IMG/VR virus record: IMGVR_UViG_3300036792_000545
Coordinates: 1-45,893 of that record
Origin: a virus
Length of the DNA: 45,893 nt
Strand: one strand, 5' to 3'
Shown in pieces: positions 12,501-40,883 of this stretch (the stretch's first letter is position 1; each line of letters opens with the position of its first letter). A program made the translations under genes and the position numbers. A model generated the notes under the pieces. The model ran no database searches. It was not told the DNA's origin and was given only the letters and a program-made list of their open reading frames with translations.

Positions 12501-12826
12501 ACCAAGCATATCGGGATGAGCTGAAGCGGTTAGAAGTAGAGGCAACACCGAGGCCATGGGAGCACACTGGGCGAGATGGGAATAACTGCCTAGACACTCC
12601 AAGGGGCTGCACTATGTGCGATGAGCAGTATTACCCGTGGACTCCAGACGCAAATGACTTCGCTTTCATCGCTGCTTCGCGCAACGCTGCGCCTGATCTC
12701 TTAGCTGAAAACGAGCGGATGCGGGAGTTGCTGAAGGACGCCCTTGAGGCCTATGACGACGATGAGGATTTCACCTATGCGTCTGCCTATGAGCGAATTC
12801 GGGAATTCCTCGCGGAGCATCCATGA
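12497..12826 (+). CDS. Ea22-like phage protein
   Basis: 109-residue protein typical of lambdoid Ea22-type sequences: ATPRPWEHTG, then NDFAFIAASRNAAPDLLAEN, ending in an ERMRELLKDALEAY helix. A CTMC motif lies between. These proteins are common in the early accessory regions of temperate phages and their role is unresolved. GGAG precedes the ATG. Confidence 0.65.
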   Translation: MNQAYRDELKRLEVEATPRPWEHTGRDGNNCLDTPRGCTMCDEQYYPWTPDANDFAFIAASRNAAPDLLAENERMRELLKDALEAYDDDEDFTYASAYERIREFLAEHP

Positions 12827-12975
12827 AGCGCACGACCCCAGCACGCAGGACAGTCGCCAAGGCGCGCAAGAAGGCGTCCGCAGATAGGGCCTCCGACCGG
12901 GATATGTTCCTGAAGGCGGTGCAGGAGTTGAGCGGGAAACCAGCAGTGGCGCAAGCCGGAAAGAAGGGGAAATGA
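12823..12975 (+). CDS. Small highly basic protein
   Basis: 50-residue peptide with a very basic N-terminus (KRTTPARRTVAKARKKAS) and basic tail (QAGKKGK). Charge suggests nucleic-acid binding. ATGA overlaps on both sides show it is part of the operon. No family recognised. Confidence 0.5.
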   Translation: MKRTTPARRTVAKARKKASADRASDRDMFLKAVQELSGKPAVAQAGKKGK

Positions 12976-13289
12976 ACAGAGTCCTTACGGTGGCGATGCG
13001 CGATGGAAGCGTGTGGGCTGTACCTGTGAGCGTCATCGCCGAAGAGCGCGCACGAGCCTACGCCTCAGAATTCGAAGGGGACTTGGAGCGGTCCCTCGCG
13101 GAGGATACTCTCCCGCTGTTCCGAGATTCTGAATACGAAATCAAGGATTGGGCCGTCAACAATATGAACTGGTCCGACGTAGCGCATGCGGCTTACCTGC
13201 TGCGCCCGCCCGCTCCACTGACGAACTCCGACAAGCAGTATGCCTGGAATAGCGGAGCGAAGGGGGTCGAGGTGATTAGCCTGTCGTGA
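12972..13289 (+). CDS. Hypothetical protein, last gene of early operon
   Basis: 105-residue protein starting MNRVLTVAMRDGSVWAVPVSVIAEERARAYA when read as two adjoining parts, a beta hairpin followed by a helix; it resembles small phage proteins of unknown function. Its last ~15 residues follow a PPAPLTNSD linker. It is the final plus-strand gene before the convergent lysis cassette. Confidence 0.6.
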   Translation: MNRVLTVAMRDGSVWAVPVSVIAEERARAYASEFEGDLERSLAEDTLPLFRDSEYEIKDWAVNNMNWSDVAHAAYLLRPPAPLTNSDKQYAWNSGAKGVEVISLS

Positions 13290-15657: not shown

Positions 15658-16785
15658 ATGCCGACCGAAGTCTATACCATGCAGAAAAATAGCGAACGAA
15701 AGCAGTTCGCGGGAATTCAGGCGCTCCGTGGGATTGCTGCATGCATGGTCGTTGCTACGCATGCAACATTTCTATGGAGTCAGGATTTTGGGGGCAACAA
15801 TAATTCTTCCTTTTGGGAGAATGGGTCTTCTGGGGTAGACATATTCTTCGTCATAAGCGGGTTCGTCATGGCGATCTCCATCAAGAATCTAACGTGGTCA
15901 AAATTTATCGGAAGACGCCTGCTTAGAATCGCCCCGCTCTACTGGCTGATCACTTCGCTCACACTGCTCAAGTTGTTAGCAATTGCGATTCACCCATCGC
16001 TCGCAATCAACGCCACGCACCTTCACGTGCCATTGGATTACATCCTGGCATCCTTTTTATTTATCCCCTACCGAAACTCGGTCGGCCTCATACAGCCAAT
16101 TGTTTCTGCGGGATGGACGCTCTCTTTTGAGATGTTCTTCTATTGCCTATTTGCTCTTGCTCTGGCGCTCAAGGTGCACGTAGTTCGCTTCCTGACCCCC
16201 ACGCTTATCATCCTCGCGTTGGTTGGATTGCTCCACACGGGCAAATGGCCCTCAGTGACCGAATTAGCTAGCCCGCTGCTACTGGAGTTCCTCGCCGGGG
16301 TTCTTCTGGCATATGCGGTAGGATTCGGTTTCCGCATAAACGCTGCGGTCTCTTCATTCTTAGGAATCATTGGATTTTCGGGGGTCATGACTCTCCATAT
16401 TCCCAATTTTCCCGGAGGAAGAGCGCTAGCATGGGGGGCTTCCGCCTTCCTTGTCGTGCAAGCATTCGTGATGCTCGAAGATAAGCTCGGGACCTTCATC
16501 CCTCGCTGGATTTTGCGCATCGGAGATGCCTCCTACTCGCTTTACTTGGGACACATGCTTGTAGGTTTGGCGGCCGTCCGGATCATCATTATGACTGGCA
16601 TTCCATCCTCCAGCGAGGCACTCCTTGCCGCCATATTGATAGTAATTTCAGTCGCGACTTCGCTGCCATTGCACAGTTACGTCGAGAAGCCGCTTACGGC
16701 GTGGTGCTCGCGTGCGTGGAGTCGTGATGCACGGCTAGTTGATGACCGTATAGCTCAAGCACGCCGGGTTAGTCGTACGGTCTGA
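15658..16785 (+). CDS. Acyltransferase-3 family protein (OafA/YrhL-like), lysogenic conversion candidate
   Basis: 375-residue integral membrane O-acyltransferase with about ten hydrophobic helices. Family signatures: IQALRGIAACMVVATHA with the catalytic-type His near the end of helix 1, SSGVDIFFVISGFVM, RRLLRIAPLYWL, WTLSFEMFFY, GDASYSLYLGH and a final YVEKPLT. Such enzymes O-acetylate surface glycans. In phages like P22, SfV and Sf6 this changes the O antigen and blocks superinfection. It lies alone on the plus strand between the lysis cassette and the tailspike gene with its own promoter and less GC-rich codons, as expected of a moron. AAGAGGAG precedes the ATG. Confidence 0.9.
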   Translation: MPTEVYTMQKNSERKQFAGIQALRGIAACMVVATHATFLWSQDFGGNNNSSFWENGSSGVDIFFVISGFVMAISIKNLTWSKFIGRRLLRIAPLYWLITSLTLLKLLAIAIHPSLAINATHLHVPLDYILASFLFIPYRNSVGLIQPIVSAGWTLSFEMFFYCLFALALALKVHVVRFLTPTLIILALVGLLHTGKWPSVTELASPLLLEFLAGVLLAYAVGFGFRINAAVSSFLGIIGFSGVMTLHIPNFPGGRALAWGASAFLVVQAFVMLEDKLGTFIPRWILRIGDASYSLYLGHMLVGLAAVRIIIMTGIPSSSEALLAAILIVISVATSLPLHSYVEKPLTAWCSRAWSRDARLVDDRIAQARRVSRTV

Positions 16786-16915: not shown

Positions 16916-19675
16916 TTAGAAGCAGGTGTAGGAGAAGTAGTATGTCGTGCTTGCTACAGTTACCTGGTTCATTGCCATCGTCGCACTTCCCGCACCGCCA
17001 CCTGCCCACATTGGCCAGTACCCCGTGAAGGGAGTGATCGTACACGCCATATTGTGCGGGGGTGCGACGGTAGGGGTAAGGGTGACCAGTGTCGTGTTGG
17101 ACGAGGAGACACTACTTGCCGCATACTGTACCACCCCAGAGGTTGCCGTACACATGAACCCGATAGCGCAGGTAGCAGTCCCATTGGTGCCCGCGCTCGT
17201 CATCCCACCGTTTCCGATGTAGTACTGCGAGGAGGTCGTGCCGTTTACCGTAAGCGGATAGGGAGGCTCATTGCTGCTGCTCCATCCCGGTCCGATGCCG
17301 ACGTTCTTGCTGAGATCATCAGCCCATAGGATATTCGTGAACGCGTTGCCGCTTGCCCCGGGCTGGTCTACATCTTGGTAGGTGTTATCAGTCTGCCGGT
17401 AGCCAATCTGGAAGTAGCAGTTGCTGGTGCTATTGAGTGGGTGCGCAAGCGCGAAGGTAGAACCCTTAGCACCAAGGAGCGTTTTGCAGATGGTCGCCCC
17501 GTTGGTCCCTGCGGGTTCCGGCGTTTGGAATACGGTTGGGGATCCTATGCCTAGCCCATTGACGTTGCCATAATCGAGGCCACCGCTGTAGATGACCTGC
17601 GAACGCGGAATAGGGGGAGACCCTGCTCCAACGGCAGTCGCGAAACAATGCGTCATATTTCCGGTCACCGTCATCGAACCGGAGTTTGCAAACGAGGCGG
17701 AACTATTCGCAAGGTACACATCGCAAGCAGCAGACCCATCTACCTCTCCGCTCAGGTTTACGGTGCCTCGGATGATGGTCGTCCCATTGCCGAGATTGAA
17801 CACGCGATCGCCAGTCCCGCCCGTGTTCACCTTCGCGTTGATCGTATTCCCGAATAGGCCCGGAGGTGGTTGGCTCCCGGATGCGGCGACCGTGCAGAAT
17901 CCGTACGAATTCGTGCCGGTGAGATCGAAGTGGATGTTGGGCCACGAGTTATAAAAGAAGCTCCCACCCGCTGTCGTCATGGACGGGTCATTCACGAAAC
18001 TAACCGCGCAGGAATTTGACCCCACCGCAAACTCGATGCCGCCCCATTCCTGCTCTTCGGTATAGCCGGGCTCGCCATTCGTAAAGCCGTTGTACATCGT
18101 AATGCCAGTAGCCCCTAGGCTGAACGTGTTGTGCGTCATCTTGAAGAAGGTGCGGGAGTACAGGTGGAAAGTTGCCGCGGTGTCAGAAAACGTAATGAAG
18201 CAGTTGCGCATCTCGCCCGAGTTGAAGGTATTTTCTCCTTTGATAGTGACGGCATCCGTACTTGCACCCGTGAATGAGTGGCCCGTGAATGTGATCGTCG
18301 AGCCCTTGCAGTCTAGAACTGGTCGCGTGATGTAGGGTGTCGATGTGGAGTTTGGGATGACCAGCGTCGTCGCCGACACCGTATACTGCTGGGTCGGGTT
18401 CAGGTCCACCTCCACGCCGGATTGCGGGCTACCCGAGGACCCTGCTTGGGAGGTGAAAGCTGCATTGATCTTGGCAGCAATATCTCCGCCCGATTGGTCA
18501 TCAGCCAAGACGATATAGTTCACGCTGGGTGCAAGGAAGGGGTTGCCGAACCCGATCGAGTGCGTCCCTGACGACCCTGCACACGTGAAGTTGAAGTTCA
18601 TATTTGGGTTGGCACCTGAACCCACCGCGTTGGAGCTGCTGCAGGTGTCGTACACGGATTGAGTGCCATTCCAGTACGCTGCCGAATAGGAGAATGCCGG
18701 GCTGCCATAATTTGCGGAAGATGTCGCGGTCGCGTTAGGCAGCAGTGCGGCGTTCGAGTTTCCAGGTGCCCCTACAACCTGAAGGCTGCCAGCAGCCCCT
18801 ATAACGACGGTGCTGTTGAAGGTATTTCCGTTCGAAAAGGTGTTATAGGAGCCAGACAGCTGCGCATAGTTATTCGCAGCTACGCCCCCGAGGCTGCTGG
18901 CGTTGACCGTCCCCGTAGACGTATATCCCAGCGATGAACCTGCCCCCACCACCATCGCTGCACTGGTATTCGTGCCTCCGGTGATCGCCGAAAACGGACT
19001 CGCAGGTACCGTGCAGCTCGCGCCGAGGGTGCAGGTCTGCCCGTTTACCGTTGTGCTCGGATTGGCGAGCGCAGAATTCGGGATCGCGCTGGCCGCCACG
19101 GCCAAATTCGGCGTGCTGGTCGCGTTTGTCACCGTTGGCACTAGCCACGATGGCCATGATCCCGCAGGAGCCGTGAATGTGGTCACCGATCCACCACTGA
19201 ACGGAGCCCAGCATGCCGCCGTGGTTGAGCTCGTAATCAGGGCGTATCCGGTCGCGCTGGACGGCCCCACACAAATCGCCACGCCATTCAGGTAGTTCGC
19301 CGCGATCGTGCCAGCGCCCGGCGCCAGCGATCCGCCAGATGCCATCGTCAGCGTGGCCGCGCTCGCTCCATTGGTCACTGATGCCCACGAGGGCGAGCCG
19401 ACCGTCATCGACGTGCAGGCGAATGCGTGCGTCGAGGTGCTGTAGGTCAGCCCATGCAGTCCGTCGCTCGCGCAGTTGTACATTTGCTCGAATGCGATGA
19501 CGGTGGCCGAGGTCGCAATCGGAATCTGGTCGGCTGCGGTGGGCTGAGTGCCAAGGCCGCCATTTGCGGGGGGGAGCACGCCGCGCACCTGCGTCTGCAG
19601 GTTGATCGTCTGCGCGAACGCGGGCACGCCCAGCACGAGCGCAAGAATAAAGCTAAGCCGTCCAATTCGCCGCAA
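16916..19675 (-). CDS. Tailspike/tail fibre with Sec signal peptide and beta-helix
   Basis: 919-residue adhesin or depolymerase. It begins with a classical signal peptide (MRRIGRLSFILALVLG, then VPAFAQ), followed by the GVLPPANGGLGT segment seen in phage fibre proteins. Long Ser/Thr/Gly-rich repeats follow, then a right-handed beta-helix-like part (from about residue 400: IVLADDQSGGDIAAKINAA, later GNTINAKVNTGG and NLSGEVDG). The C-terminal tail is Thr-rich. The TTG at 19675 was chosen because CAGGAG lies about 5 bases upstream. It follows the ejection and appendage genes, the usual place for receptor-binding proteins. A Sec signal on a virion protein is odd. Confidence 0.75.
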   Translation of the reverse strand: MRRIGRLSFILALVLGVPAFAQTINLQTQVRGVLPPANGGLGTQPTAADQIPIATSATVIAFEQMYNCASDGLHGLTYSTSTHAFACTSMTVGSPSWASVTNGASAATLTMASGGSLAPGAGTIAANYLNGVAICVGPSSATGYALITSSTTAACWAPFSGGSVTTFTAPAGSWPSWLVPTVTNATSTPNLAVAASAIPNSALANPSTTVNGQTCTLGASCTVPASPFSAITGGTNTSAAMVVGAGSSLGYTSTGTVNASSLGGVAANNYAQLSGSYNTFSNGNTFNSTVVIGAAGSLQVVGAPGNSNAALLPNATATSSANYGSPAFSYSAAYWNGTQSVYDTCSSSNAVGSGANPNMNFNFTCAGSSGTHSIGFGNPFLAPSVNYIVLADDQSGGDIAAKINAAFTSQAGSSGSPQSGVEVDLNPTQQYTVSATTLVIPNSTSTPYITRPVLDCKGSTITFTGHSFTGASTDAVTIKGENTFNSGEMRNCFITFSDTAATFHLYSRTFFKMTHNTFSLGATGITMYNGFTNGEPGYTEEQEWGGIEFAVGSNSCAVSFVNDPSMTTAGGSFFYNSWPNIHFDLTGTNSYGFCTVAASGSQPPPGLFGNTINAKVNTGGTGDRVFNLGNGTTIIRGTVNLSGEVDGSAACDVYLANSSASFANSGSMTVTGNMTHCFATAVGAGSPPIPRSQVIYSGGLDYGNVNGLGIGSPTVFQTPEPAGTNGATICKTLLGAKGSTFALAHPLNSTSNCYFQIGYRQTDNTYQDVDQPGASGNAFTNILWADDLSKNVGIGPGWSSSNEPPYPLTVNGTTSSQYYIGNGGMTSAGTNGTATCAIGFMCTATSGVVQYAASSVSSSNTTLVTLTPTVAPPHNMACTITPFTGYWPMWAGGGAGSATMAMNQVTVASTTYYFSYTCF

Positions 19676-31560: not shown

Positions 31561-32205
31561 TCAAGCTCCTAGTTGCATCATGCCAAGTTGGGTGCGCTGT
31601 GCGATCGCCATCGCCTGCGCCATCGTGCGCTCCATCAGTTCCATGCGCTTCTGCACCATTGGCGAGCCGCGGCGGATGCGGTGCGCGCTACGAGAGTCGG
31701 CAAGGATGCGATCAGCCTCCGCCTCCTCAGCTGCCTGCTCCTCCTCAAACACCGCGAGCTTCTGATCATCCGTGAGCCGGTTCCATCCCTGGATCAGTGG
31801 AATCATCACATCGAGGATGAAATGCGTTGGCTCCATCCGCGTCGTGTACCACTCGCTGCCGATTAGCTCGCGGTGGATCAACTTGCGGATGCAGCGATAG
31901 CGGCCGTGATATGGATACTGGCCCAACGTCACGAGGCCGGTGTGCTCATCGGTGTGGTCCTTATACCAGCGGTAGGCGGTGCCGTTGAACTCGGCAGGCT
32001 CCCACATCATGATCGCCCAGCACGCCTCGCCGCCGAGCGCAGGCACATCGCGGTAGCCCTCGAACCCATCCTTCATGAAGTAGCCGCCGTCGCGCATGCT
32101 CGCGGACTCACCCCATACGAGCTTGAAGCGTGGCTCTCCGTAGCGGTTCGTTCCGCCGACGCGGGTCAGGCGCTCCTGGAACCACTCGGGGCACTCCCTA
32201 AACAT
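31561..32205 (-). CDS. Hypothetical structural-region protein
   Basis: 214-residue protein. A Trp/Tyr-rich first part (MFRECPEWFQERLTRVGG, then YRWYKDHTDEHTGL) precedes a strongly helical charged C-terminus (LTDDQKLAVFEEEQAAEEAEADRI). ATG at 32205 overlaps the GroES-like gene's stop by a few bases; earlier starts are inside that gene. No family recognised. Position suggests a head-completion or scaffold-accessory role. Confidence 0.55.
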   Translation of the reverse strand: MFRECPEWFQERLTRVGGTNRYGEPRFKLVWGESASMRDGGYFMKDGFEGYRDVPALGGEACWAIMMWEPAEFNGTAYRWYKDHTDEHTGLVTLGQYPYHGRYRCIRKLIHRELIGSEWYTTRMEPTHFILDVMIPLIQGWNRLTDDQKLAVFEEEQAAEEAEADRILADSRSAHRIRRGSPMVQKRMELMERTMAQAMAIAQRTQLGMMQLGA

Positions 32206-32590
32206 AGGGATGGCGCCCTTTCCCAGTAGGAAATTCACTGGATCTCTGCTGGATTCCACCGCTCGTCTTTACGCGCCCCTGAATGTCGTCATAGCGGATG
32301 AGATAGAACTTGGTCGCGCCGGGCAACTCATCCTCGACCCTGAATGTCTGGTAGTCGCGGCCAAACTCGTTGGTCTTCACGATGTCGCCCACCTTATAGG
32401 GCATCGGGACCATCAGGCCGCCGCGCGGGAACTGCGTGTCGCAGGAGAGCACCTTTCCAAACTGCGGCTTGCGGGACGCCTTGTGCGTGCGGACAATCTC
32501 TTGCCCATTCGCCATCACTACACCAGTTCCAGTTGCGTTCTCCACGGGAATCTCTTCGATCAGCAGTACGTCAAGGAATGTCTCGATCAT
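32198..32590 (-). CDS. GroES-like co-chaperonin
   Basis: 130-residue protein with a GroES-like order of segments: FLDVLLIEEIPVE (first strand), a loop with GTGVVMANGQ, KPQFGKVLSCD, MPYKVGDIVKTNEFG and finally KFYLIRYDDIQGRV, matching the K-x-G-x-V, K-V-G-D-x-V and Y-L-I-R-x-x-D-I landmarks of Cpn10. The GroEL-binding mobile loop (about residues 18-40) seems long. The gene lies directly after the major capsid gene, as expected if, like T4 gp31, it helps GroEL fold capsid protein. The C-terminus extends beyond the GroES fold. Similarity is by eye. Confidence 0.6.
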   Translation of the reverse strand: MIETFLDVLLIEEIPVENATGTGVVMANGQEIVRTHKASRKPQFGKVLSCDTQFPRGGLMVPMPYKVGDIVKTNEFGRDYQTFRVEDELPGATKFYLIRYDDIQGRVKTSGGIQQRSSEFPTGKGRHPYV

Positions 32591-32633: not shown

Positions 32634-33989
32634 TTAGAGGTTTACGACAGGGAGTCCCTGCAGATAGAAGCCGCCCTTGGGATTGTTGTTGACGAGCTGG
32701 AATCCACGCTCGTAACCGAACATCTGCGAGTCGTAGTACGTCGCGTTCGCACCGCCACCGATGGCCGGAACCGCAGCGATCGTGTTGCCGGGGGTCCACT
32801 CATGCAAGCGGGTCGGGAACAGTTCGCCGAAGTACCAGTCGTCCTCGACGATGTAGTCCATGCGGGTCGGCTCTGCGGTCGATGCCCAGACGACATCCTC
32901 ACCGAGGAACGTCTTCTGCATCATCTTGCGCGCGGTGTCGGGAACGTTCTCCTTCTCGCCCTCATCCAGCCGCGTGTAGCCGGTGCTGTAGAAGTTGTTC
33001 GAGAGGGGAAGCCCCTGCGCCGCATTGCCGAGCCAGAACGCCTTCTGGTTCGCGTCGTAGTCATCGCCCAGGGCACGCATGCGAATCGCCTGGATGCGCT
33101 GTGCAGTGGAGTTGACGACGGCGCCGTTGCCGCCGAAGTTGATGGTGGGAGTCGAGAGGCGGCCGGGATAGTTCGCCTTGGCGATGCCACCGATGGTTCC
33201 GGTGTTGCCGTTGGCGAGCCAGTAGTCCTTGCCGAGGATGGACGACCCAGCCGCACCAGTGGCACCCTGCACGACGAGGATGTCGCCGGTCGTGGTGCCA
33301 GTCGGGAGCGCAGTCGTCGAGTAGACCGTCTGCGCCACCGGATCGACGTAGCTGATGGTGAAGCTGCCGCGATTGGTGCCGCCGACCGCCGAGAGCACCT
33401 GCACGGTCTGCTGGTCCGAGAACGAGCCCGCCGTGTTCAGGCCGACGATGCTGGAGTAGGTCGGGGAGCCGGAAGCGCCGCCGCCAGTCGCGTTGTTCAC
33501 GGTCGCGGTGGTCGGGATCTGGTCGATGGTTCCCGATCCGTCGCGGTGGATGATGCCCTCGACTCCGTTGTCGAAGGCCTTGAGCGAGTTCTGCAGCTCC
33601 TCGCGCTTGATCTTGACGAGGCCGCGGTCCTTGCCATCGGTCGCCTGCATCGCGAGGTTCGAAATCTCGCAGACGTTCACGAGGCGCACTGGAGCGGCCA
33701 CAAAGCCATCGAAGGTCGAGCCCGTGCCGCGGCCCCAGGTGAAGATCGCGCCGGAGGTGTCCGCAGTCGCCTGCTGGATCGCAGCGCCACCCTGCGCACG
33801 GAAGGGAACGCGCATCGGAGCGCGGCTGACGCCTCCGCCCTGCGTCGCGTTCGAGATGTCCATCTTGTGAGCGCCCTTTTCGAGGCGCGTCAGGAAGCGG
33901 TCAAAATGCTGTTGGTAGTCGGGGATCTCTTCGACCCATGCATCGAGCTCAATGGCCTCTGCGGCCAGCTCGTTCATTGGAACGCCCAT
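32634..33989 (-). CDS. Major capsid protein
   Basis: 451-residue protein that should form the icosahedral shell (HK97 fold). The N-terminal ~100 residues are helical, with LERRASFQ-like character absent but FRAQGGAAIQQATADTSG and EISNLAMQATDGKDRGLVKIKREEL typical of phage capsid proteins that follow scaffold genes. Residues 180-290 are a Gly/Ser/Thr insertion domain; the C-terminal part (TARKMMQKTFLGEDVVW, VEDDWYFGELFPTRLHEW) has the P-domain feel. It follows the portal and scaffold genes and is preceded by its own strong promoter and leader. The product call rests on size, order and the promoter. Confidence 0.75.
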   Translation of the reverse strand: MGVPMNELAAEAIELDAWVEEIPDYQQHFDRFLTRLEKGAHKMDISNATQGGGVSRAPMRVPFRAQGGAAIQQATADTSGAIFTWGRGTGSTFDGFVAAPVRLVNVCEISNLAMQATDGKDRGLVKIKREELQNSLKAFDNGVEGIIHRDGSGTIDQIPTTATVNNATGGGASGSPTYSSIVGLNTAGSFSDQQTVQVLSAVGGTNRGSFTISYVDPVAQTVYSTTALPTGTTTGDILVVQGATGAAGSSILGKDYWLANGNTGTIGGIAKANYPGRLSTPTINFGGNGAVVNSTAQRIQAIRMRALGDDYDANQKAFWLGNAAQGLPLSNNFYSTGYTRLDEGEKENVPDTARKMMQKTFLGEDVVWASTAEPTRMDYIVEDDWYFGELFPTRLHEWTPGNTIAAVPAIGGGANATYYDSQMFGYERGFQLVNNNPKGGFYLQGLPVVNL

Positions 33990-34020
33990 CGGTAACCCTC
34001 AAAAGCAAGCTAGGCAGCGT

Positions 34021-34122
34021 TTCCGCTCCCGCGTTGATGTCTCAACGTCTTTCCGCTCACTCAAGGGCTAACGAGATTGAAACCGGGCTCGACCGGGCCT
34101 TGATGCTAATGCAACTTCAATC
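34021..34122 (-). promoter_or_regulatory. Structured 5' leader of the capsid gene
   Basis: The leader between the promoter and the capsid ATG holds several pairings: TTCAATC/GATTGAA arms (34116-34122 with 34075-34081) around a CCCGG/CCGGG hairpin near 34084-34098, and CGTTGA/TCAACG (34032-34047) with a 4-base loop. TTCCGCTC is repeated at 34021 and 34051 on each side of this hairpin. It may stabilise the capsid message or end upstream transcription. No riboswitch family is recognised. Confidence 0.45.
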
Positions 34123-34125
34123 GCA

Positions 34126-34153
34126 ATAATACCACTTTACATATCCGCGTCAA
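34126..34153 (-). promoter_or_regulatory. Strong sigma70-like promoter for the capsid gene
   Basis: On the minus strand TTGACG (complement of 34148-34153) and TATTAT (complement of 34126-34131) are 16 bases apart, a near-consensus promoter. The RNA would start near 34119, giving a leader of about 130 bases before the capsid ATG. It lies in the only sizeable gap of the late region, after the fibre-like gene. Confidence 0.65.
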
Positions 34154-34178
34154 CCGAAAACCATACTTCCTGCAAATC

Positions 34179-35060
34179 TTAGTAATCCTCAAGTACCAGC
34201 GAACCGGTAGTGGTCGCTCCGGTTACCGTTACCGCCGTGGTGCTGACCGATGTGGCAATCGACGCCGCCACATTATTGCTGGCGTAAACGCTGGGAGCGT
34301 TTACGAATGCCACTGGGTAGGTATAGCTGGCCGTGCCCAGGCATGCTGCAAGATGGATTGTCACCCGCTTATTGACGCTACCCTGAAAGGGCTCTACGAA
34401 TACTGCCTGCCCGGAGGTGCTGCAAGATACAGTGGTCTGATTGCCGGTGATAGTAAGTGCTTTTGAAGCACTCAATGTGGCCATCCCTCCAAAACTTCCA
34501 CCGTTGTTCAGGTAGGCTTTCTGAATAAATACTTCAGACCCCAGGGGGTGAGCAGGGCTGCCATATAGATACCAATCTTGATTGTTATCGAAGCAGGTCG
34601 CACTTGCTGCATAGCTAACCCCGGAAGACCATACGTGCTGGACTAAGCACCCATACCCAGAGGGGATCCCATTTGTCGAGCCGCTATTCGTTGAGGTAAC
34701 CTGCGTCAACGTACTCGGAGTCGCTGTGGCATCCCCATTCAAGGTTCCTGGGTAGAGCGTTCCTGCTGCCGGTGTGACTCCGCCAATCACTGCACCGTCG
34801 ATCGTGCCGCCAGTGATGGCCGCTGTTGCTCCACTGCCCGGCGCTGCAGCGATCGGATTCCACCATGTCGGGTTGGAGGATGGAGTCTCGACGGCATTGT
34901 TTGACTGCAGCGAAACATATGTCGTCCCGTTGTAGGTGACAATATTGCCCGCCGTGTACACCGTGTAGGAGTTCCACGCATCTCCTGGGCGTGGACCAGT
35001 CTGCGCTACAGCGAATATGGGGAGGAGCAGCAACAGCAATGCGGCGAAGCGAACTTTCAT
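34179..35060 (-). CDS. Secreted/fibre-like protein with CBM5/12-type chitin-binding module
   Basis: 293-residue protein with a perfect-looking Sec signal peptide (MKVRFAALLLLLLPIF, then AVAQ). Residues about 28-68 form a carbohydrate-binding module of the CBM5/12 kind: WNSYTVYTAGNIVTYNG, then YVSLQSNN and NPTWW, with the aromatic residues expected for chitin or cellulose binding. GGTIDGAVIGGVTPAAGTLYPG recalls tail-fibre segments, and a beta-rich C-terminus follows. It sits between the scaffold and capsid genes, where head fibres or decoration proteins are often encoded. The export signal is unexplained. Confidence 0.65.
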   Translation of the reverse strand: MKVRFAALLLLLLPIFAVAQTGPRPGDAWNSYTVYTAGNIVTYNGTTYVSLQSNNAVETPSSNPTWWNPIAAAPGSGATAAITGGTIDGAVIGGVTPAAGTLYPGTLNGDATATPSTLTQVTSTNSGSTNGIPSGYGCLVQHVWSSGVSYAASATCFDNNQDWYLYGSPAHPLGSEVFIQKAYLNNGGSFGGMATLSASKALTITGNQTTVSCSTSGQAVFVEPFQGSVNKRVTIHLAACLGTASYTYPVAFVNAPSVYASNNVAASIATSVSTTAVTVTGATTTGSLVLEDY

Positions 35061-35069
35061 GGTTCTCCT

Positions 35070-36383
35070 TTATGGCTTGCGAACTTGAATCCACTTTCCG
35101 GTGCGGAGCCGATAAATCTTCTGCGTTAGATCGGACAGCGGCGTACCCTGATGGTCGATCTCATGCATGGGCGGCTTCACGGAGACAACCTGTACCTGCC
35201 GGCCGGACACAACTGCCGGCTTGGCAACACCGGGGCGCGCGGCGACAGCAGGCTTTGGCTTCCCCCCGCTCAGAAACGAATCCCACCGCTCGGCCTTGAC
35301 CGCCTCGAATGCCTGCTTTCCCTTAGCCGCGAGATTGATCTTGATCCAGTTCTTCACGGCTGCAGGATCTGGATTCTTCTGGCCTCGATACAACTTCAGC
35401 TGCTTGTCGTAGTTCGGATCAGCCTTGCACGCTGCTGCAATCTTGGCCTTGAAGTCGGATATCGCCGCCTGCTTCTGCGTCTCTGAGAGTTTCAGGCGCT
35501 GCGCATAGGGCTTGAACAGCTCGTCAAACTTGTCGTTCTCCATCTTGACGGCATCGGGGCGGATGTTTGTCTTCCAGTGCTGCTCCTGCTTCTCCTGCTC
35601 GAACTGCGTCCTCTCCTGCTGGAACTTGTCGCGGTCAGTATCGGTCGCCGCCGGCGTCTTGAGCGTGCCCGCCTTGTCCGCCTGCGCGTTGAACCATGCA
35701 CCCATACGCCCAAGTGTCTGCAGCGTGAACTGCATCTTCGTCTTTTCGTCGAAGCGCGGGTCGTTCTGCGCATTCAGCACGTCCACCAGCGAATTGAACT
35801 CCTTCACCAGGTCGGAGGACGCGAGCGCGCTCACGAAATGTGGCAGGATCGCAGCATTGTAGGCAGCTGGGTCGGACTTCATCACGCGATCGAGTATGGT
35901 TGGCGTCAGCTTGGCCAGGCCGGAGTTGAAGTCGTCCCCCAGAGCATCGAGCGCCTTCGGATCACCGGATGCGAGCAGGCTGTCGACCTCCTCCGTCTGC
36001 GTCAGGCGCTCCTGCAGCTCCGTGATCGCCTCGGCGCCGCGCACGTCGCCCACTGCGAGCGATTCCAGCAGCGCGTACTTCTCGCGCACGCCGTCGACTC
36101 CCTTCGGCTCCAGTTGCTGGAGCGCGAACAAGCGCGCGTGGTTGTCGCGGGACGCTTTAGCGAACTTTGCCTGATCGGGATTCGCCGCCTCCCATGCCTT
36201 CGTAGCTGCGCGGAATTCGCGGGAGAACTTGGTCGTGTAGGGGTCGTCCTTCGCCGATGCGGAGGTGGCTTCTTCACCATCGGCTACTTCTGGAGATTCG
36301 GGCGAGTCGCCTTCTTGGGTTTCGAGTTCTCCTAGTTCAGCGTCAATCTCTGGTGTATCCAGAACTGCATCCATTCCGTCCAT
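35070..36383 (-). CDS. Scaffolding protein
   Basis: 437-residue, highly charged, mostly helical protein. The N-terminus is acidic (DTPEIDAELGELETQEGD), the centre has coiled-coil-like Gln/Glu/Lys runs (FQQERTQFEQEKQEQ) and the C-terminus is basic (RLRTGKWIQVRKP), which fits a scaffold that touches the capsid subunits through its basic tail. It lies between portal and capsid genes, the P22 order portal-scaffold-coat. The name is by composition and position. Confidence 0.7.
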   Translation of the reverse strand: MDGMDAVLDTPEIDAELGELETQEGDSPESPEVADGEEATSASAKDDPYTTKFSREFRAATKAWEAANPDQAKFAKASRDNHARLFALQQLEPKGVDGVREKYALLESLAVGDVRGAEAITELQERLTQTEEVDSLLASGDPKALDALGDDFNSGLAKLTPTILDRVMKSDPAAYNAAILPHFVSALASSDLVKEFNSLVDVLNAQNDPRFDEKTKMQFTLQTLGRMGAWFNAQADKAGTLKTPAATDTDRDKFQQERTQFEQEKQEQHWKTNIRPDAVKMENDKFDELFKPYAQRLKLSETQKQAAISDFKAKIAAACKADPNYDKQLKLYRGQKNPDPAAVKNWIKINLAAKGKQAFEAVKAERWDSFLSGGKPKPAVAARPGVAKPAVVSGRQVQVVSVKPPMHEIDHQGTPLSDLTQKIYRLRTGKWIQVRKP

Positions 36384-40809: not shown

Positions 40810-40883
40810 TGGCACCGGGAAGCGGAATCGAACCGCTGCATTCAGTTTTGGAGACTGAGGTTCTGCCACTAAACTATCCCGGC
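40810..40883 (-). tRNA. tRNA-Trp (CCA anticodon)
   Basis: A 74-base cloverleaf including an encoded CCA end. Acceptor stem GCCGGGA pairs with TCCCGGT (G1-U72 wobble at the top), discriminator G. D stem GTTT/GAAC; anticodon stem TCAGT/ACTGA with the loop CTCCAAA, giving CCA = Trp; T stem AGCGG/CCGCT with loop TTCGATT. All stems pair, so it should be functional. It lies between the large terminase gene and the small-protein cluster, on the late strand, and would be transcribed with the late genes. Confidence 0.92.

Follow-up and report, generated by a model that had tools for sequence, protein, structure and literature searches.

The window, i.e. the whole stretch of DNA analysed here, is a virus record of 45,893 bases from a soil phage. 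Its terminase shares about 48-50% identity with the terminases of the epsilon15-like Salmonella phage SPN1S and of Pseudomonas phage AF. The phage is probably an epsilon15-like podovirus and its host an acidobacterium, an indirect assignment based on one MAG contig and on related prophages: alignment of the capsid against genome contigs yielded a single contig of an Acidobacteriaceae MAG, that of the portal none. Relatives were collected by a portal search, which returned 52 related viral contigs, and by capsid searches, which gave more; such virus records may be incomplete. In about 60 relatives the order terminase-portal-scaffold-capsid-GroES-like is conserved wherever the stretch is covered, and it is because of this order that the genes at 35070-36383 and 32634-33989 (both on the minus strand) are named scaffold-like and capsid gene, neither giving an informative match in Pfam or PHROGs. 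In the window as in nearly all relatives, the capsid gene is directly followed by the GroES-like (Cpn10) gene (32198-32590; PHROG 3188, E 2e-6), whose product may act with a chaperonin or may itself be a capsid protein of that fold. Between the terminase and portal genes lies a tRNA gene (40813-40883, minus strand; RF00005, 65 bits), the only element retrieved by an Rfam scan of the window.

Between the scaffold and capsid genes, a position given correctly in the preliminary description and confirmed here by synteny, lies an intact reading frame of 293 amino acids (34179-35060, minus strand) starting with ATG. Nine bases separate the scaffold stop from this ATG, and they include a ribosome-binding site, AGGAG (35065-35069, minus strand). 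The gene is absent from the approximately 60 related phages, even from one with an 84% identical capsid; its GC3 is 0.59 as compared to 0.69-0.85 in the other structural genes measured, and part of the spacer preceding the capsid gene can be aligned with the spacer of relatives lacking the gene. Taken together, these comparisons identify 34179-35060 as accessory and as an insertion immediately following the scaffold gene. The spacer itself, the capsid-gene leader (33990-34178, minus strand), is kept in relatives without the insert and contains blocks conserved across them (GAGACATC), possibly a late regulatory or RNA element; conservation of an RNA fold in it is weak, amounting to six pairs. 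Other inserts occupy the head-gene gaps of relatives, for example HNH-like and GIY-YIG-like endonucleases, with families read from sequence (L010 12265-12855, L021 16635-17231, L027 16081-16683, L039 8750-9238, L082 7024-7626; L015 11397-11945, L030 7799-8329). A protein of 98-100 amino acids, possibly a decoration protein, is encoded between the capsid and GroES-like genes (L017 14673-14975, L083 3836-4132), and a further signal-bearing insert within the head module, a gene for 95 amino acids, is found between the portal and scaffold genes (L005 and L007, both 12709-12996; L091 2050-2337).

The product of 34179-35060 begins with a predicted Sec signal peptide (residues 1-19; 35004-35060, minus strand), MKVRFAALLLLLLPIFAVA followed by Q, in which a K/R-containing n-region, a Leu-rich core and a c-region with an AxA-type site, cut between AVA and Q, are all present. 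Straight after the signal comes a CBM5/12 module (residues 28-67; 34860-34979, minus strand), which scores 32.2 bits against PF02839 (E 1.1e-7), above the curated cut-off of 26.2, and which matches the chitinase A1 domain 1ed7 in the PDB (E 4e-5). Both the signal and the module had been proposed from the bare sequence, and both hold, the one by a sequence rule and the other by profile search. For the mature protein, single-sequence structure models reached a pLDDT of 35; the module reached 60, with no more than a beta hairpin. A low-complexity, fibre-like linker follows (residues 74-135, GGTIDGAVIGGVTPAAGT; 34656-34841, minus strand), and the C-terminus (residues 203-293; 34182-34454, minus strand) is formed by a domain of the tail-fibre tip type. 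Neither Pfam nor PHROGs recognised a virion-attachment domain in the protein, which also lacks a short motif that several primary spikes have behind their signal.

Single-sequence scans of viral contigs and of a phage collection with the whole protein returned no match, fragments from its middle and C-terminus found nothing convincing in phages, and C-terminal scans of viral contigs confirmed no relative. In 349 searched genomes from the class to which the Acidobacteriaceae MAG with the capsid relative belongs, one strong match was found: a 976-aa ORF of an Acidobacteriota siphophage prophage, located directly after the tape measure gene and provided with its own signal peptide. The C-terminal domain is 56% identical to the end of this prophage fibre (G350) over 80 amino acids, and two of the four Cys residues that follow the predicted cut align with Cys residues of the fibre. 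Judged by this alignment, the last 90 or so amino acids are convincingly homologous to a tail-fibre domain. A full-length match (36%, residues 14-293) was rejected, the alignment being convincing for the C-terminal part only. Of the fibre-like repeats initially described, the C-terminal portion thus stands, but the middle of the protein is without a convincing match in database search.

The remaining matches in the host class are mostly secreted proteins of collagen-like type in which CBM5/12-like modules recur (L108-L126), and these proteins likely represent the source pool of the phage module. One further match in the 349 genomes lies in a prophage tail-tip protein. In the tailspike of one relative (G009), a signal peptide precedes a CBM5/12-like module that reaches E 2.5e-6 within that genome but stays below the Pfam cut-off. 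With so many such repeats in host secreted proteins, one may ask whether 34179-35060 is a mere passenger, a fragment of a host protein gained by recombination and without function for the phage, as its low GC3 and its occurrence in one phage only would also allow. We regard this as very improbable: the reading frame is intact and has a ribosome-binding site inside a structural cluster, and its C-terminal domain matches a prophage fibre and not the host proteins.

Like 1ED7, the CBM5/12 module comprises 40 amino acids and keeps the aromatic core, but its fusion partner is the tip of a phage fibre and not an enzyme. Trp687 and Gln679 are given as chitin-binding residues of ChiA1 in a work cited by PMC8449059; in our alignment an equivalent of Gln679 is present, whereas that of Trp687 falls into a two-residue gap. 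Chitin is unsupported as ligand because this Trp is missing, and chitin binding by the protein appears doubtful from the alignment. In general, carbohydrate-binding modules are a known component of phage adhesion devices (PMC8540738).

The protein is not the only candidate for export in this phage. Its tailspike (16916-19675, minus strand) has a TTG start with a ribosome site, a Sec signal, MRRIGRLSFILALVLGVPAFA followed by Q, and 20 Cys residues in the mature part, so that the signal-bearing tailspike of the preliminary description is real. As in SPN1S and Tyrion, it ends the tail module beside an acyltransferase gene on the opposite strand (15658-16785), a neighbourhood which suggests conversion of surface polysaccharide. 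The tailspikes of SPN1S, AF and Tyrion, in contrast, have no signal and only 5-9 Cys residues.

We then surveyed the tail-end genes of the window and of ten soil podoviruses related to it, using lists compiled partly by reading. All large ORFs for spikes or fibres that follow the conserved 230- and 180-aa tail genes bear a Sec-type signal, and in the ten relatives such genes often stand two to five in tandem; a large spike candidate free of a signal was not found in these phages. Among 135 conserved morphogenesis orthologues there was one signal-like match, where alternative starts were allowed within 30 codons as compared to 75-80 codons for the spike list; with the same 75-codon window applied to all genes, one annotated orthologue scored. 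It should be noted that signals were called with a home-made rule and some by eye, the rule having missed three signals of the cultured phage Tunturi 1 that are plain to the eye.

Cysteine residues follow the same division. Their density is 2.08 per 100 amino acids in the exported proteins versus 0.56 in morphogenesis proteins (p=1.7e-12). For counting parity we used 32 proteins of at least 200 amino acids from the window, its relatives, Tunturi 1 and four siphoprophages, with truncated ORFs excluded; they fall into 28 homology clusters, the signals thus preceding largely unrelated proteins. The mature Cys count is even in 30 of the 32 (p=1.2e-7) and in 26 of the 28 clusters, each taken once (p=1.5e-6), as against 38 of 94 morphogenesis proteins having any Cys. 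Even and enriched Cys residues are the pattern expected from disulfide bonds, and for the spike and fibre class Sec export with disulfide formation is strongly indicated by these sequence features. VKOR, a periplasmic oxidant, is encoded in 39 of 61 host-class genomes, including the MAG bearing the capsid relative.

To our knowledge, the assembly of tailed phages is otherwise cytoplasmic, and it is taught so. This would favour a reading in which the signal is not used for export and the hydrophobic N-terminus, which could insert into the tail collar, is kept as an anchor in tail or membrane, with assembly remaining in the cytoplasm. Such an anchor seems improbable to us in view of the canonical cut sites followed by Q and of the even, enriched Cys residues. 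Moreover, the same fibre domain occurs without a hydrophobic stretch: an N-terminal domain common to four siphophage fibres (E 1e-6 to 1e-44) is immediately preceded by a signal in two of them, whereas the other two proteins start at the domain. By sequence, the signal of the siphophages gives the impression of having been added to a fibre that is ordinary in other respects; among other acidobacterial siphoprophages, some have fibre signals and some do not.

Signals on spikes are also present in cultured phages. In the acidobacterial podophages Tunturi 1 and 2 (PMC11924767), gp12, gp13, gp14, gp16 and gp17 carry signals, gp12-gp14 being annotated as tail spike or pectin lyase. Cys residues number 20 in gp12, 10 in gp13, 20 in gp14 and 32 in gp17 of Tunturi 1, and 34 in the gp17 of Tunturi 2, which is 96 amino acids longer. 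In their Sec signals and in the even Cys counts of the large members, these proteins resemble the spikes of the window; yet by structural genes the Tunturi phages belong to another lineage (no phmmer match), and no CBM5/12 was found in the four spikes scanned, unlike in the window protein. The fibres of Tunturi 3, 4 and 5 show neither signal nor Cys enrichment. Tunturi 3 lacks the trait on the same host strain as Tunturi 1 and 2, and therefore the trait is not explained by host or habitat alone. The main text of the Tunturi paper (PMC11924767) does not discuss signal peptides, and our literature search, largely confined to openly available journals, turned up no description of tailed phages whose tail spikes bear signal peptides. 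The system of exported phage adhesins suggested from the window is thus well supported and, through the relatives, Tunturi 1 and 2 and the Cys parity, reaches far beyond it.

A phage protein passing through the host Sec system before lysis is known from exported endolysins such as Lys44 of fOg44 (PMC6116005), which however is a lysis enzyme, the window protein being a probable adhesin of the receptor-binding type. Counted against virion use of exported spikes is that, once in the periplasm, they are kept apart from cytoplasmic virions until lysis. Exported spikes could join cytoplasmic particles at or after lysis, much as purified tailspikes of P22 attach to heads in vitro. As a general proposal, plausible and put forward tentatively, some acidobacterial tailed phages would send their spikes through Sec, lock them by disulfides in the periplasm and join them to finished particles only at lysis.

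Alternatively, the exported adhesins or depolymerases might be free in the medium and never on the virion, serving for instance as decoys or loosening exopolysaccharide for the progeny. The CBM protein would suit this role, having a Sec signal without a recognised attachment domain, being dispensable in about 60 relatives and carrying a module typical among secreted proteins of the host class. On balance we consider this reading rather unlikely: with signals on all large spike candidates no signal-free spike would be left to the particle, which favours virion use for the spikes as a class, siphophage fibres with and without a signal have the same N-terminal domain, and the C-terminal domain of the CBM protein itself is of the tail-fibre type. 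The case for virion attachment is weaker for this protein than for the spike class, because it has no attachment domain and relatives dispense with it.

For 34179-35060 we consider it fairly probable that the product is an accessory, late, Sec-exported and disulfide-stabilised fibre, meeting virions at or after lysis. Judging from its spacing, the gene would be translated with the late head-gene cluster; the product would be exported via Sec, lose its signal between AVA and Q and form its disulfides in the periplasm. The mature protein would have a CBM5/12-like module for glycan binding near its N-terminus and a domain of the tail-fibre tip type at its C-terminus, and would belong to the same class as the phage's own tailspike. 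Its role may be that of an additional head or tail fibre, or of a free glycan-binding protein released at lysis. A head fibre, as originally envisaged, has no direct support; proximity to the capsid gene carries little weight, because homing endonucleases and other inserts are found in the head-gene gaps of relatives. A decoy made by the lysogen, the other role envisaged, likewise lacks direct support and fits poorly: the late-gene setting, with a start nine bases behind the scaffold stop and a ribosome site of its own in a structural cluster, argues against production by a lysogen, and promoter-like sites occur at about chance level.

If the general proposal is true, these phages complete their virions outside the cytoplasm. 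Sec signals and paired Cys residues on every large spike candidate imply either that assembly follows such a different order or that there is a large set of secreted adhesins, and the presence of the trait in Tunturi 1 and 2 and its absence from Tunturi 3, cultured phages of one host strain, make the question directly testable. It is also relevant to the encounter of soil phages with the exopolysaccharide of acidobacteria. In annotation, signals of this kind could lead to phage spikes being taken for secreted host proteins. Finally, a protein with a CPAC/CTAC motif behind an H-x(2,3)-H stretch close to the N-terminus recurs in several acidobacterial prophages and phages (L128 7830-9161, L152 3987-5150, L153 1658-2863, L058 10741-11811).
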